DNA of 64,000 nucleotides, taken from the NCBI RefSeq assembly GCF_038024105.1, contig NZ_CP150661.1, positions 2,375,001 to 2,439,000 of the forward strand, given 5' to 3'. This document shows positions 36,005 through 55,890 of the stretch, one piece after another; position 1 is the stretch's first letter, and each line of letters opens with the position of its first letter. The translations under genes and the position numbers were made by a program. The stretch comes from Polaribacter butkevichii (GTDB lineage Bacteria > Bacteroidota > Bacteroidia > Flavobacteriales > Flavobacteriaceae). The notes under the pieces are model-generated. The model was not told the DNA's origin. It made no database searches and worked only from the letters and a program-made list of their open reading frames with translations.

Positions 36005-36724
36005 ATGGAAATTAAAAAACACCCAAAATCAAATTTAGAAAATTACAGTAAAATTTTTATGCAAATAGGTTTGGTTTTAGCATTATTTGTAACCTATGCT
36101 GCAATAGAAAAGAAAACATACGATAGAAATATTGGTGATTTAGGTACTGTAACGATGAATGCCGAAATGGAAGAAGAAACTGTAATTACTGAAAGAGTAG
36201 AGCCAGTGAAACCAAAAACGCCACCACCACCAGCACCAGAAAAAATTGAAATTGTTGAAGATGAAAAGGAAGTTGAAGAAACTGTAATTGAATCTACTGA
36301 AACAGATGAAACTGAAGCAATAGAAGTAGAAGAAATTGTAGAGGTAGAAGAAGTAGAAGAAGTTGTAGAAGATGTAAGTTTTATGATTATTGAAGATGTA
36401 CCTGTATTTCCTGGATGTAAAGGAAGTAAAAATGAGTTAAAAGCTTGTTTTAGTAAAATGGTACAAAAGCACTTCTCAAGAAAATTTGATGCAAATTTAC
36501 CTAACGAACTAGGTTTATCTCCAGGTAGAAAAAGAGTATTTATTGGTTTTAAAATTGATAAAAACGGAAATATTGTTAACGTAAACGCTAGAGCACCACA
36601 CCCAAAAATTAAAAGTGAGGTTATTAAAGTGATGAAACAATTACCTAAAATGAAACCTGGTAAACAAAGAGGAAAACCAGTAGGTGTAAAATATAGTATT
36701 CCATTTACATTAATTGTAGAGTAA
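36005..36724 (+). CDS. Energy transducer TonB, paralog 1
   Basis: 239 residues: a short cytoplasmic stretch, one membrane helix (IGLVLALFVTYAAI, ~21-35), a Pro stretch (PKTPPPPAPEK) and an unusually acidic spacer with EVEEVEEVVED, then a TonB C-terminal domain (~125-239) with VFPGCKG, FKIDKNGNIVNV and PKMKPGKQRGKPVGVKYSIPF. TonB couples the proton-motive force through ExbBD to outer-membrane transporters. Exb genes are absent here. It is very similar to 52606-53340 and less so to 49774-50511. A strong terminator follows. Confidence 0.92.
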   Translation: MEIKKHPKSNLENYSKIFMQIGLVLALFVTYAAIEKKTYDRNIGDLGTVTMNAEMEEETVITERVEPVKPKTPPPPAPEKIEIVEDEKEVEETVIESTETDETEAIEVEEIVEVEEVEEVVEDVSFMIIEDVPVFPGCKGSKNELKACFSKMVQKHFSRKFDANLPNELGLSPGRKRVFIGFKIDKNGNIVNVNARAPHPKIKSEVIKVMKQLPKMKPGKQRGKPVGVKYSIPFTLIVE

Positions 36725-49773: not shown

Positions 49774-50511
49774 TTACTCTAAACGAAAAGCTATTGGTAA
49801 ATTATATCTAACCTTAACCGTTCTACTATTTTGTTTACCAGGTTTAAATTTGGGTAACTTTTTAATAACTCTTAAAGCTTCTTTTTCTAAACCTTTATAC
49901 GCTGTTCTAATCTTCACATCAACTATATCTCCTTTATCATCTATTACAAACTGCGTCTGTATTTTATGTTTGCCAGAACGTAAACCTATTTCAGTTGCCA
50001 ACCCTACATCAAAATTACGTTGTACAAACTGTTTCATTTTTTTATCAAAACAAATCTTATTTTCTTTTTTTGATAAATTTTCACATCCTTTAAAAACAGG
50101 TGCATCTTCTATACTTACAAAATCTACATCTTCAATAAAGTCATCAATAACATAAACCTCAACAACTTTATCTATATTAATTAAAACAGGATCTTCTATT
50201 GGAGTATTATCAATAATTGTTTCAATAATAGTATTATCTCCTTTTATAACCTCATCTACAATAAATGGTGCTGCTTTTATAACCTTTACTTGAGGCACAA
50301 CTTTAGGTTGTTTTGTAAAAAAAACATCTACATCTGGTTCTACATAAACAATTTTGTTTTTATCTGGTTTAAGAACAACTATTGTTTTCTGTTCGGTTTG
50401 GTATTCTAAAGTCACAAAGACTATAAAGAGTACTAATACAAGCCCTAACTGCATAAAAAGGTTAGAGAATTTTTCTAATTGTTTGGTTGGTAGTTTCTTG
50501 GTGTTTTTCAT
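49774..50511 (-). CDS. Energy transducer TonB, paralog 2
   Basis: 245 residues: MKNTKKLPTKQLEKFSNLF cytoplasmic start, membrane helix QLGLVLVLFIVFVTLEY (~20-36), a periplasmic spacer with little proline, and a TonB C-terminal domain (~135-245) with VFKGCENLSKKENK, VIDDKGDIVDV and LPKFKPGKQNSRTVKV. More diverged than paralogs 1 and 3; it lacks their acidic EVEEVEE tract. The ATG at 50511 is chosen over an in-frame TTG at 50565. Its stop is immediately followed by a terminator. Confidence 0.9.
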   Translation of the reverse strand: MKNTKKLPTKQLEKFSNLFMQLGLVLVLFIVFVTLEYQTEQKTIVVLKPDKNKIVYVEPDVDVFFTKQPKVVPQVKVIKAAPFIVDEVIKGDNTIIETIIDNTPIEDPVLINIDKVVEVYVIDDFIEDVDFVSIEDAPVFKGCENLSKKENKICFDKKMKQFVQRNFDVGLATEIGLRSGKHKIQTQFVIDDKGDIVDVKIRTAYKGLEKEALRVIKKLPKFKPGKQNSRTVKVRYNLPIAFRLE

Positions 50512-52605: not shown

Positions 52606-53340
52606 ATGGACGTTAAAAAAAACCCAAAACAACAGTTAGAAAATTATAGCAAGATTTTCTTACAAATAGGGTTAGTGCTAACCTTATTTATTACCTACAC
52701 TTTAATTGAATATAAAACATATGAAAGGAATGATTTAAAAAGCTTAGGACAAGCCAATATGATCGATGATATGAAAGAAGACATTCCTATCATAGAAATG
52801 CAAGAAGTAAAACCACCACCAAAAAACACACCTCCACCAGTTGTAGAACAAATTACAGTTGTAGAAGATGAAAAAGAAATAGAAGAAACCGTTATAGAAT
52901 CTACAGAAACAGATGAAACAGAAGGTGTAATTGTAAATACAGACGATATTGTAGAGGTAGAAGAAGTAGAAGAGGTAGTAGAAGATATCCCTTTTATCTT
53001 AATTGAAAACGTACCTGTTTACCCTGGATGTAAAGGAGATAACAAAGCCTTAAAAGACTGTTTTACAAAAAAAGTAACTGAGTTTTTTGGTAGAAAGTTT
53101 GATGTTAATTTAGCTAACGAATTAGGCTTACAACCTGGTAAAAAGAAATTATTTGTAATTTTTACAATTAACAAAAAAGGTAAAATAGCAAATGTTAGAG
53201 CTAGAGGACCACACCCTAGATTAGAAAAAGAAGTAGTAGAAATTATTAGTGCCTTACCTACCATGACTCCTGGAAAACAAAGAGGAACTCCTGTTGGTGT
53301 TAGTTACAGTATCCCTATTACTTTTGAAGTTAGAATTTAA
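52606..53340 (+). CDS. Energy transducer TonB, paralog 3
   Basis: 244 residues: membrane helix IGLVLTLFITYTLIEYKTYE (~20-38), PPPKNTPPPVVEQ, the acidic EVEEVEEVVED tract, and a TonB C-terminal domain with VYPGCKG, FTINKKGKIANV and LPTMTPGKQRGTPVGVSYSIPI. It is closely similar throughout to paralog 1 at 36005, pointing to a recent duplication of the gene without neighbours. A terminator follows. Confidence 0.92.
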   Translation: MDVKKNPKQQLENYSKIFLQIGLVLTLFITYTLIEYKTYERNDLKSLGQANMIDDMKEDIPIIEMQEVKPPPKNTPPPVVEQITVVEDEKEIEETVIESTETDETEGVIVNTDDIVEVEEVEEVVEDIPFILIENVPVYPGCKGDNKALKDCFTKKVTEFFGRKFDVNLANELGLQPGKKKLFVIFTINKKGKIANVRARGPHPRLEKEVVEIISALPTMTPGKQRGTPVGVSYSIPITFEVRI

Positions 53341-53382: not shown

Positions 53383-53412
53383 TAAAGAATTAAAAACTAA
53401 GAAATTCACCTA

Positions 53413-53443
53413 TTGAAGAGCCTTACAATGTTATCTATATTTG
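53413..53443 (+). promoter_or_regulatory. Promoter of sRNA candidate A
   Basis: -33 TTG at 53413-53415 and -7 TATATTTG at 53436-53443, separated by exactly 20 nt as in copies B, C and D. AAATTCACC stands upstream in the place where the other copies have AAATTACC. Confidence 0.75.
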
Positions 53444-53449
53444 TAGTGT

Positions 53450-53570
53450 AATCTTTAACAAATATTATATCTTGATTTTAGATTATTTTAAAAATAAATT
53501 AGTGTATTTAGTCCCCCATAATTATATTAATAAAAAGCTAAACTACCCCCTTGTCGTTTAGCTTTTTTTT
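53450..53570 (+). ncRNA. Candidate small RNA A (C-loop sRNA family)
   Basis: About 121 nt from the predicted start, about 7 nt after the -7 element, to the end of the terminator T-run. No ORF of note. Hairpin 1 (53498-53531) pairs ATTAGTGTATTTA with TAATTATATTAAT around GTCCCCCA; hairpin 2 is the terminator, AAGCTAAAC / GTTTAGCTT, with five C in its loop. It differs from copies B-D at many positions but keeps the promoter spacing, both stems and both C-runs. It is convergent with the first receiver gene, 40 nt from its stop. Called an RNA from sequence organisation only. Confidence 0.65.
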
Positions 53571-53571
53571 A
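53533..53571. terminator. Terminator of sRNA A, probably bidirectional
   Basis: AAGCTAAAC / GTTTAGCTT with a 12-nt C-rich loop; T-run of eight on the plus side and TTTTTA on the minus side, so it could also end the receiver gene transcript. Confidence 0.85.
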
Positions 53572-53609
53572 TGCATTATTTTTTATAATAAATAAAACAC
53601 TTCTTATTC

Positions 53610-53972
53610 TTAAGCATTTGTAATTGCTTCAATTAACTGATCGAAATCTTTTGTTTTATCAAAAAAAGTACAGACTCCGTATTTTAAACAATAACTTTTA
53701 AGCTCTATACTTACAGAAAAAACAAACACTTTTGTTTCTATTTGTTTTTCTTTAAGCATTTTTAACAACTCAATACCGTTTCCATCAGGTAATTTTAAAT
53801 CGAGTATAACTAAATCGTAATTAGTAGTAGAAAAAAGAGCAATTGCTTCTTGTAAAAATTCTGTTAAATGAATGTGTTTAATACCTTTATTTTTCTTAGC
53901 CGCATTAACAATACTCTTTCCTATAAAAGAGTTGTCTTCTACTATTAATAAATTACTTAAAGTTGATTTCAA
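53610..53972 (-). CDS. Receiver-only response regulator 1
   Basis: 120 residues, a single CheY-like receiver domain with no output domain. Phospho-acceptor Asp58 (LVILDLKLPDG), acidic pocket Glu12-Asp13, Ser86 (VFSVS) and Lys106 (FFDKTKDF) are all present, so it can be phosphorylated. The start is TTG at 53972, matching its paralog at 54750-55112. Such proteins act as phosphate sinks or by protein contact. The giant kinase at 55887 is the obvious candidate partner. A dyad TAAGCAAAATGCTTA lies 59-73 nt upstream. Confidence 0.9.
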   Translation of the reverse strand: MKSTLSNLLIVEDNSFIGKSIVNAAKKNKGIKHIHLTEFLQEAIALFSTTNYDLVILDLKLPDGNGIELLKMLKEKQIETKVFVFSVSIELKSYCLKYGVCTFFDKTKDFDQLIEAITNA

Positions 53973-54030
53973 GATAGGGGTATGATAGATGAATTAAAGG
54001 CAAGATAACTGCTTTCAACAGATATAAACG

Positions 54031-54045
54031 TAAGCAAAATGCTTA
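54031..54045. promoter_or_regulatory. Dyad operator candidate upstream of receiver gene 1
   Basis: TAAGCAAAATGCTTA, followed by TCATTTAATTATT. The same dyad plus the same 13-nt flank occurs upstream of receiver gene 2, although the DNA around them has otherwise diverged. Confidence 0.6.
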
Positions 54046-54130
54046 TCATTTAATTATTTAAACCATCATTAGACTATAACAATTATCAAAAAATATACTT
54101 TTAATCATTAAAAAATAAGAAAATTACCTA

Positions 54131-54161
54131 TTGAAAAAACTTACACTCTTATATATCTTTG
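54131..54161 (+). promoter_or_regulatory. Promoter of sRNA candidate B
   Basis: -33 TTG at 54131-54133, 20 nt, -7 TATCTTTG at 54154-54161. AAGAAAATTACCTA precedes it as in C and D. Confidence 0.78.
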
Positions 54162-54166
54162 AAGTG

Positions 54167-54304
54167 TAGTTATTTAAAATTTGTAAATCGTAAGATTACA
54201 TAAATTAATAAAACTATTTTTGATAAAAATATTAATGTATTAAGCCCCCCCATAATGTATTAATAAAAAAGCTAAACTCCCCCCTTTGACGTTTAGCTTT
54301 TTTT
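54167..54304 (+). ncRNA. Candidate small RNA B (C-loop sRNA family)
   Basis: About 138 nt. Nearly identical to copy C. Hairpin 1 (54231-54264) pairs ATTAATGTATTA with TAATGTATTAAT around AGCCCCCCCA (seven C); hairpin 2 (54269-54299) is the terminator with six C in its loop. The wobble G-T pairs created by sequence differences from C keep hairpin 1 intact. Divergent from receiver gene 1. Confidence 0.68.
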
Positions 54305-54305
54305 A
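54267..54305 (+). terminator. Terminator of sRNA B
   Basis: AAGCTAAAC / GTTTAGCTT, loop TCCCCCCTTTGAC, T-run of seven. Confidence 0.88.
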
Positions 54306-54339
54306 TGCCTAATTTTTAAAAAAATAAGAAAATTACCTA

Positions 54340-54370
54340 TTGAAAAAACTTATAATCTACTGTATCTTTG
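54340..54370 (+). promoter_or_regulatory. Promoter of sRNA candidate C
   Basis: -33 TTG at 54340-54342, 20 nt, -7 TATCTTTG at 54363-54370. Confidence 0.78.
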
Positions 54371-54375
54371 AAGTG

Positions 54376-54514
54376 TAGTTTATTTAAAATTTGTAAATTA
54401 TAAGATTACAGGAATTAATAAAACTATTTTTGATAAAAATATTAATGTATTAAGCCCCCCCATAATATATTAATAAAAAAGCTAAACTCCCCCCTTTGAC
54501 GTTTAGCTTTTTTT
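54376..54514 (+). ncRNA. Candidate small RNA C (C-loop sRNA family)
   Basis: About 139 nt, the closest relative of copy B, starting 209 bases after it. Hairpin 1 (54441-54474) pairs ATTAATGTATTA with TAATATATTAAT around seven C; hairpin 2 (54479-54509) is the terminator with six C. No ORF. Differences from B lie mostly in the 5' third and in one hairpin arm, where they keep pairing. Confidence 0.68.
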
Positions 54515-54515
54515 A
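54477..54515 (+). terminator. Terminator of sRNA C
   Basis: AAGCTAAAC / GTTTAGCTT, loop TCCCCCCTTTGAC, T-run of seven. Confidence 0.88.
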
Positions 54516-54548
54516 TGCCTAATTTTTAAAAAATAAGAAAATTACCTA

Positions 54549-54579
54549 TTGAAAAAACTTATAACCTACTGTATCTTTG
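54549..54579 (+). promoter_or_regulatory. Promoter of sRNA candidate D
   Basis: -33 TTG at 54549-54551, 20 nt, -7 TATCTTTG at 54572-54579. Confidence 0.78.
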
Positions 54580-54584
54580 AAGTG

Positions 54585-54707
54585 TAGTTTATTTGAAATT
54601 TTAAAATAAACAAAAACTATTTTTGATAAAGAATATTAATGTAGTTACTCCCCCATAATTATATTAATAATAGAGCTAAACCACCCCCTTGTCGTTTAGC
54701 TTTTTTT
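54585..54707 (+). ncRNA. Candidate small RNA D (C-loop sRNA family)
   Basis: About 123 nt. The promoter and first bases match B and C, but the 3' half resembles copy A: hairpin 1 (54635-54668) pairs ATTAATGTAGTTA with TAATTATATTAAT around five C, and the terminator loop reads CACCCCCTTGTC as in A. It is convergent with receiver gene 2 (43 nt away), just as A is with receiver gene 1. This suggests A and D descend from the copy that sat next to the ancestral receiver gene. Confidence 0.68.
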
Positions 54708-54708: not shown

Positions 54709-54749
54709 TGCTTTGTAAAAAATAAAATACTTTTTTTTGGGGGGTTGGG

Positions 54750-55112
54750 TTACACGTTTGTAATAGCTTCTATTAATTTGTCAAAATCTTTTGCTTTATC
54801 AAAGAAAGCCAATGCACCATATTTTAAACAAAAAGTTTTAAGCTCTGTACTTACAGAAAAAACAAAAACTTTAGTTTCAATTTGTTTTTCTTTAAGAATT
54901 TTCAAAAGCTCTATTCCATGTCCATCTGGTAATTTTAAATCGAGTATTACCAAGTCAAAAATTGTATCCTCAAATAAAGAAATTGCCCCTTGCAGAGATT
55001 CTATTACATGAATATCTCCAATACTACTAATTTCATTAGCAGCATCAGTAATACACTTTCCTACAAAAGAATTGTCTTCTACTATTAATAAGTTATTTTT
55101 TATTGATTTCAA
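54750..55112 (-). CDS. Receiver-only response regulator 2
   Basis: 120 residues, paralog of 53610-53972 with the same length, the same LKSxxxNLLIVEDNSF start, Asp58 in LVILDLKLPDG, Lys106 in FFDKAKDF and the same IEAITN end. The start is TTG at 55112; a longer reading to 55154 would pass through the -7 element and is rejected. A G-run on the plus strand just after the stop gives its mRNA trailer a C-run. Likely partner of the kinase encoded upstream. Confidence 0.9.
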   Translation of the reverse strand: MKSIKNNLLIVEDNSFVGKCITDAANEISSIGDIHVIESLQGAISLFEDTIFDLVILDLKLPDGHGIELLKILKEKQIETKVFVFSVSTELKTFCLKYGALAFFDKAKDFDKLIEAITNV

Positions 55113-55236: not shown

Positions 55237-55890
55237 TTAAAGATCTAATGAGGTTAAGCCTTGTTGAATGGCATATTTTGTTAACTCTGGAATTGTATGT
55301 AAATCTATCTTTTTCATAATATTATTTCTATGAACATCAACCGTTTTAGGGCTTAAAAATAATATTTCTCCTGTTTCTTTAGACGATTTACCTTCTGCAA
55401 TTAACTGTAAAACTTCTTTTTCTCTAGAACTTAACTGTGTTTTTTCTAAAGCTTTCTTTTCTTTAAGCACTGTAAGAAACTCTTGATTAATGTCTCTTGA
55501 AAGGTATTTTTTATTTTGCATTACTGTAGAAATTGCGGTAATTAACTCATCTGCATCTCCATCTTTTAATAAATAACCAAAAGCCCCTGCTTTAAACATA
55601 CTCTGAATAAATTGCTTACTAGAATGCATAGAAAGGCCTATTATTTTTATATCAGAATTTTCTTTATGAATTTGTTTTGTAGCCTCTATACCATTTAAAC
55701 CTGGCATTGCCACATCCATAACAATAACATTTGGAGCTAGCTTTAAACATGTTTTTATAGCCTCTCTACCATCAGAAGCCTCGCCTATTATATGCATATT
55801 AGACCTTTGTTCTATAATGTTTCTTAAACCATCTCTTAGCAATTTATGGTCATCAACTAATACTATTTTAATTTCTTTTAGATAAGTCAT
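55237..55890 (-). CDS. LuxR/NarL-type response regulator
   Basis: 217 residues: receiver domain with Asp59 (VIVMDVAMPGLNG), acidic pair Asp13-Asp14 (VDDHKLLRDGL) and Lys near 108 (GYLLKDGD), then a C-terminal LuxR helix-turn-helix (~150-212) with LSSREKEVLQLIAEGKSSKE and LSPKTVDVHRNNIMKKI. Its start overlaps the kinase stop by 4 nt (ATGA), so the two are translationally coupled and form a cognate pair. Likely targets are nearby genes with the TAAGCA dyad, which is inference. Confidence 0.95.
   Translation of the reverse strand: MTYLKEIKIVLVDDHKLLRDGLRNIIEQRSNMHIIGEASDGREAIKTCLKLAPNVIVMDVAMPGLNGIEATKQIHKENSDIKIIGLSMHSSKQFIQSMFKAGAFGYLLKDGDADELITAISTVMQNKKYLSRDINQEFLTVLKEKKALEKTQLSSREKEVLQLIAEGKSSKETGEILFLSPKTVDVHRNNIMKKIDLHTIPELTKYAIQQGLTSLDL

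Follow-up and report, generated by a model that had tools for sequence, protein, structure and literature searches.

Layout of the four-unit locus

The window analysed here is a stretch of 64,000 nucleotides (nt) of the Polaribacter butkevichii genome (NZ_CP150661.1, positions 2,375,001 to 2,439,000 of the forward strand; coordinates below are those of the window). It contains four paralogous units, A to D, each with its own promoter and terminator as in a multicopy small RNA (sRNA) family. The units lie beside two genes for stand-alone receiver proteins, REC1 and REC2, a gene for a NarL/LuxR-type response regulator and a gene for a multi-domain histidine kinase (Table 1).

The initial annotation had described each unit as TTG, exactly 20 nt, TATmTTTG, a short stretch without an open reading frame (ORF) and a GCTAAAC/GTTTAGC terminator, with B, C and D in tandem, and this description held throughout. 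The promoter spacing was verified in all four units (TATATTTG in A, TATCTTTG in B, C and D), and the starts of B, C and D were 209 bases apart. Bodies of 82–100 nt separated the promoter from the terminator hairpin, which was followed by a T-run in each unit. No ORF was common to the units, and the longest complete ATG/GTG/TTG frames inside transcripts A to D were 29, 7, 7 and 11 codons; a translated conserved peptide was therefore rejected as their product. Rfam 15 covariance models gave no match to the window at the gathering score, so that a known RNA family was rejected; a lax search returned 18 matches, all weak, of which the strongest reached 26.9 bits (49 required). Plasmid copies were rejected as well, since a 3.3-kb query found no match in a plasmid collection.

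In Flavobacterium psychrophilum promoters the element TAnnTTTG is reported at −12 to −5 (PMC9723704). With the element placed in this way and the terminators taken as 3′ ends, the four predicted sRNAs are 122–139 nt long. These results support the assignment of units A to D to a multicopy sRNA family, their transcription being predicted from the promoter and terminator sequences.

Three features were absent from the initial annotation: a 15-bp box 5′ of the TTG, two C-runs in each RNA and, in relatives, protein genes that share the promoter and the C-run. The box, TAAGAAAATTACCTA, directly abuts each TTG (the −33 element) and is common to the units and their relatives. It is an imperfect dyad, TAAG-N7-CCTA, centred near −43, with five of seven dyad positions matching (base counts; dyad drawn by eye).

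Table 1. Features of the four-unit locus (window coordinates; sRNA ends predicted; bits refer to the 61-nt promoter matrix).
Feature	Position	Strand	Basis or remark
Unit A box TAAGAAATTCACCTA	53398..53412	+	72.6 bits; box kept in relatives
Unit A promoter TTG-N20-TATATTTG	53413..53443	+	pattern
Unit A predicted sRNA, ~122 nt	53448..53569	+	C-runs 53513–53517 (body hairpin loop), 53546–53550 (terminator loop)
Unit B box TAAGAAAATTACCTA	54116..54130	+	73.1 bits
Unit B promoter TTG-N20-TATCTTTG	54131..54161	+	pattern
Unit B predicted sRNA, ~138 nt	54166..54303	+	C-runs 54245–54251, 54279–54284
Unit C box TAAGAAAATTACCTA	54325..54339	+	64.6 bits
Unit C promoter TTG-N20-TATCTTTG	54340..54370	+	pattern
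Unit C predicted sRNA, ~139 nt	54375..54513	+	C-runs 54455–54461, 54489–54494
Unit D box TAAGAAAATTACCTA	54534..54548	+	64.7 bits
Unit D promoter TTG-N20-TATCTTTG	54549..54579	+	pattern
Unit D predicted sRNA, ~123 nt	54584..54706	+	C-runs 54650–54654, 54684–54688
Stand-alone receiver REC1, convergent with unit A	53610..53972	−	PF00072
Stand-alone receiver REC2, convergent with unit D	54750..55112	−	PF00072; 72% identical to REC1 (alignment)
NarL/LuxR-type response regulator, proposed box-binding activator	55237..55890	−	PF00072 + PF00196
Histidine kinase, 1866 aa	55887..61487	−	VUPS sensor, several PAS, HisKA_3, HATPase

The response regulator and the kinase presumably form a pair, as judged from their adjacency. 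Six stretches of the kinase matched PAS_3 alone, and parts of its PAS domains appeared by eye to be near-repeats of one another. On the minus strand at 54729–54752, the REC2 mRNA would read TAACCCAACCCCCCAAAAAAAAG right after the stop codon, which is a further C-run at the same locus, in a 3′ untranslated region (UTR). Three TonB-like paralogs were present in the window (36005–36712, 49780–50505 and 52606–53337), and the TonB-like gene directly upstream of unit A had a same-side counterpart in 11 surveyed relative loci.

Box, promoter and regulator in Polaribacter

In the 4.08-Mb genome that holds the window, the pattern CCTATTG-N18–22-TANNTTTG recovered the four units and one odd-spaced site (reversed-pattern control, 0), and the strict box-plus-promoter pattern recovered the four units only. 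By itself and with as many as three mismatches allowed, the 19-nt box gave 13 matches including the four units, compared with 15 in the control; the box alone was not above its control, so specificity resides in the box plus the promoter. Across the genus, the strict pattern, which was read from the same sites that it counts, was present in 30 of 166 genomes (59 sites), with none in the reversed control (controls were reversed sequence or reversed pattern throughout). In a family-wide search it was found in 4 of 397 genomes (two in the genus and two among 394 others), with one control hit.

A 61-nt promoter matrix was run over 56 loci (0.79 Mb), the same loci that had supplied its 44 training sites. 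It gave 106 matches scoring more than 5 bits; reversed sequence gave none. These comprised 59 matches of the sRNA class, 45 of the protein-gene class and two of neither class; 99 of the 106 scored at least 12 bits (55, 43 and one, respectively). Two weak matches at the starts of receiver genes (L245 at 6402 and L286 at 7433), probably spurious, were kept among the 45. One sRNA-class site (L165), with its called terminator 290 nt downstream and no C-run, was dropped, and later sRNA counts use 58 units. Five candidates from a loose pattern with non-zero controls (L176–L180) were rejected: no box was detected in them by regular expression, and all scored below −5 bits on the matrix.

The box followed the regulator closely. 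Homologs of the regulator (E ≤ 1e-75) were present in 41 of the 166 genus genomes and in 29 of the 30 genomes with a strict box. Among the 125 regulator-less genomes a single one had the box, and that exception was 76% complete. At the locus level, 38 of the 56 loci contained both the regulator and a site of at least 12 bits, nine contained a site only and one contained neither; where both were present, the nearest box lay 475–2807 bp from the midpoint of the regulator gene. The units had at first been placed beside receiver genes, which is correct as a location, but the tie to the NarL-type regulator was tighter: an sRNA faced the 3′ end of a receiver gene (within 350 bp) in 22 of 47 cases.

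C-runs in the sRNAs and at start codons

A run of five or more C residues occurred within 150 nt after the promoter at 53 of 63 first-survey sites, before the promoter at 10 of 63, and in 206 of 20,000 random windows. Altogether, 54 of the 58 sRNAs contained such a run; composition shuffles gave a mean expectation of 0.45. Runs of at least four C (C4+) lay in the terminator hairpin of 42 units, in the body of 50 and in both in 36. Folding of the 58 sRNAs predicted these runs to be unpaired (mean 0.94–0.95). Body C-runs were enclosed by 7.8 predicted pairs on average, compared with 3.1 when their flanks were shuffled; 45 of 61 had at least six enclosing pairs, and 13 of 61 were individually significant (p < 0.05). 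The 32 runs of five or more C in protein-gene leaders showed the same tendency (7.5 enclosing pairs, 4.3 shuffled).

The promoter, the non-coding body and the terminator hairpin recurred in many relatives, which supports the multicopy family proposed at the outset, and the stems varied in a compensating manner. Among 50 distinct terminator hairpins, pairing held in 98.4% of cells, seven of nine pairs were changed on both sides, and cells changed on both sides numbered 20, compared with 1.9 in shuffles; since the hairpins were chosen by complementarity, pairing and compensation are partly built into these figures, which are support rather than proof. Two loci (L250 and L252) had an unrelated terminator stem and retained the C-run loop. 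Beyond the C-run, the sRNA body seemed by eye to have little conservation among distant species.

The same promoter also preceded protein genes in relatives, which makes the sRNAs one branch of a regulon; to this extent the original description of an sRNA family alone, sound for the family itself, was too narrow. In a tally of 36 genomes, 14 had sRNAs only, nine had protein genes only and 13 had both (L039–L046 were allotted to genomes through contig names, lengths and positions). Five protein families recurred behind the box, F1 to F5. Pfam matches were sub-threshold for F1, F2 and F5 and absent for F3 and F4; some source records label F1 as PepSY-like and F2 as beta-barrel. The products are small and are probably envelope or secreted proteins. 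No convincing BLASTP similarity linked the families (in a set of five proteins the lowest E between families was 0.009). Among the best eight matches of the receiver, and among those of co-regulated proteins, the named organisms were Polaribacter or unclassified Flavobacteriaceae; for F1 and F2 they were Polaribacter.

A C4+ run lay within 30 nt of the ATG in 11 of 16 F2 genes, four of four F3, four of four F4, two of two F5 and seven of 19 F1. Where present in F2 to F5, it was 0–7 nt from the ATG, and four of eight F2 genes that were not directly behind a box kept it. For comparison, CCCCC occurred within 40 nt of the ATG in eight of 291 ORFs of at least 150 residues in the first loci, box genes included. 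Over the whole protein-gene class, 29 of 45 leaders contained C4+, a count that used a separate choice of start codons and missed L163, L160 at 8665 and L286 at 9240. Some box-driven genes repeat CCCC several times in their 3′ regions, and one (L289) shares the terminator stem of the sRNAs.

At two loci (L044 and L244), genes for MKKAQE-like peptides of 40 residues stood in tandem, each with a box promoter and a C-run 0–2 nt before the ATG. In three others (L160 in G029, L040 in G033, and L295) a G-rich, hairpin-like element (GGAGA...GGGG or GGGA...TCTCC) lay 3′ of F1 or F2 genes; it is a possible G-run partner for the C-runs.

Interpretation and relation to known systems

In the mechanism put forward here, the multi-PAS kinase would phosphorylate the NarL-type response regulator, which would bind the box and activate the abutting promoter. 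The four genes would then give rise to the sRNAs, each predicted to fold into an A/U-paired body hairpin and a terminator hairpin with five to seven C in each loop. In relatives the same promoter would drive the small-protein genes, several families of which have the C-run at the start codon. Because the C-run occurs both in sRNA loops and at the starts of distinct mRNAs that share a regulator, a single factor acting in trans, probably a protein that binds RNA, would read it and limit translation at those starts, and the induced sRNAs would act as two-site decoys that remove this putative factor. A factor bound 0–7 nt from the ATG would hinder initiation, and we infer from this position that its titration should raise translation. 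What the sequences show directly is how the units are built, their recurrence, stems that vary in concert, a C-run kept within the genus and the company of the regulator. This reading of the sRNAs as decoys for a putative C-run-binding translational regulator, with a logic like that of Gac/Rsm and the C-run in place of GGA, is our leading one; it is drawn from sequence patterns and is held tentatively, at somewhat less than an even chance. A wider proposal is rather more doubtful: that Polaribacter has a complete post-transcriptional system parallel to Csr/Rsm and of separate origin, in which a putative reader of CCCCC loops represses at start codons and decoys with two C-loops, induced by the two-component system, relieve the repression, together in some species with C-rich 3′ UTRs of the targets.

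Several observations weigh against the decoy reading. No strict box was detected in 12 of the 41 regulator genomes, and eight of the 56 loci had the regulator and no site of at least 12 bits. The genomes with sRNAs only and those with protein genes only indicate that a decoy may occur without a box-driven target, and such a target without a decoy. Twelve of the 19 F1 genes had no C4+ within 30 nt of the ATG, and 16 of the 61 body C-runs were without a hairpin of six or more pairs; the partly built-in compensation of the terminators, described above, belongs here too. In the window's own genome, the box and box-plus-promoter searches found no box-driven protein gene, and C-run leaders were not clearly in excess (22 compared with 16 in the control; 13 compared with 6). 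An own-genome regulon of C-run leaders was rejected, since most of the examined sites fell within other long ORFs or at a repeated tRNA flank.

A family of large proteins was also tried as a target. In the same genome, CCCCC stood 3 and 6 nt before the ATG of two genes (L352, G000:C1 ~2917443, minus strand; L353, 3887769 and 3888054, plus strand), and upstream of the L353 gene there is a duplicated leader that contains a 36-codon frame. Their products, of 1624 and 1856 aa, are probably secreted and have C-terminal parts that look alike by eye. Proteins of this type had matches in 33 of the 166 genus genomes, with 30 loci given, 27 of which had a readable leader. Of the other regulator genomes, one had a close C-run and several did not, and C-run leaders also occurred in regulator-less genomes. 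The family does not follow the regulator and was rejected as a target, a further point against decoys for a shared start-codon factor.

Outside the genus, a locus in another genus (L211, G270) had a box plus promoter of 20.8 bits at ~1400–1560 on the minus strand, just downstream of a regulator homolog (1647–2276; 61% identity over 211 residues) with a kinase piece alongside. Its predicted short RNA had its own G+C-rich terminator and no C4+ run, which also counts against the decoy reading. Judged from this one case, the association of regulator, box and sRNA seems to extend outside the genus and the C-run is not universal, which suggests that the link between regulator and sRNA is older than the C-run. 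With the full matrix, the second match outside the genus (L208) scored −33 bits and seems to be a chance hit.

Base pairing is the main rival to the decoy reading. C-runs in loops are a classic form of seed, and C-rich sRNAs of Staphylococcus and Listeria pair with G-runs. Here the looped C-runs would be seeds for G-runs in target mRNAs, and the leader C-runs would be separate or would pair with the same G-rich RNA. The C-runs are predicted to be free, as seeds should be, and the G-rich hairpin in the 3′ regions of box-driven genes of three genomes would fit such a partner. In the own genome AATTATGGGGG, with up to one mismatch, occurred 81 times compared with 45 in the control, a count that is not split by gene position, includes the antisense of the sRNA loci and neither proves nor excludes pairing. 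No conserved G-run target was found, however, and none of the 63 promoters had a sense-strand run of five G in the 150 nt to either side. Base pairing also gives no reason for the C-run itself to stand before the ATG in several protein families, and on balance we consider it unlikely while giving it real weight.

Less probable still is a role of the C-run in recruiting an RNA chaperone or a stabilising factor needed by the transcripts of the regulon, with the sRNAs acting through other parts. The occurrence of the C-run alike in sRNAs, in leaders and in some 3′ regions, and its retention in sRNA-only and protein-only genomes, would agree with this, but the rest of the body, poorly conserved by eye, leaves no evident seed, and the closeness of the C-run to the start codon points to translation. 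It is very improbable that the chief target of the sRNA is the convergent receiver mRNA, which may be antisense to it at the 3′ end and share its terminator: the 22 receiver genes that face an sRNA are set against 25 of 47 that do not, directly 3′ of units B and C of the window there is another unit or no receiver gene, and the leader C-run is left unexplained. We give equally little credence to the absence of any regulatory RNA, with the units as decayed box-driven protein genes (tandem 40-residue genes with the same promoter do exist) or as a box array that titrates the regulator, because terminator stems that stay paired though changed (in hairpins chosen by complementarity), loop C-runs kept across species and C-run numbers far above chance point to selection on RNA.

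The decoy reading can be set beside several described systems. LhrC of Listeria has C-rich motifs and pairs with mRNAs, in which it is unlike the proposed decoys, and it belongs to another phylum. Its resemblance lies in multicopy sRNAs under a two-component system, LisRK (PMC4132741). Rfp18 of F. psychrophilum, an sRNA from the same bacterial family, is a structured RNA predicted to pair with protease mRNAs through its third stem-loop; the accessible part of its source describes no multicopy tandem or two-component link for it (PMC9723704). The FopS/GibS sRNAs of Bacteroides, which are described with the RNA-binding protein RbpB, share with the present family the multicopy arrangement in Bacteroidota, the promoter type (canonical sigma-ABfr promoters) and the terminator hairpin, according to the portion of the source at hand (PMC11697453). 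In that same portion FopS has a single-stranded 5′ seed, and no two-component partner or C-run loops are described for it. The 5′ R1′ seed of FopS was not found in units A to D, which resembled the FopS consensus no more than shuffles did (local scores reached by 160–446 of 500 shuffles); by sequence they are not FopS.

Searches of an open-access library gave no report of a system such as this one, and the most fitting description of the four units is a new sRNA family in a C-run regulon of a type not found described. To our knowledge, there are few worked examples of RNA-level control in Bacteroidota; here the RNA element, the promoter box, the likely activator and the co-regulated genes can all be named. 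The closest parallel in plan is Gac/Rsm of gammaproteobacteria (GacS/GacA, RsmX/Y/Z and CsrA/RsmA), in which sRNA loops display several GGA motifs and the promoter box is TGTAAG-N6-CTTACA. Both combine a multi-sensor kinase with a regulator of the LuxR/NarL type; in both, a small number of sRNA genes have a dyad box in the promoter, and the sRNA hairpin loops carry a short motif that also occurs at mRNA start regions. The motif in Polaribacter is instead a C-run, with GGA absent from 55 of 58 units and no unit having two or more, and the box is TAAG-N7-CCTA. The Polaribacter system is thus Gac/Rsm-like in plan and not a member. As the element stands both in sRNA loops and at the start codons of several families, a search for its binding partner is a direct experiment, and finding a partner would test whether decoy logic of the Csr/Rsm kind arose more than once.

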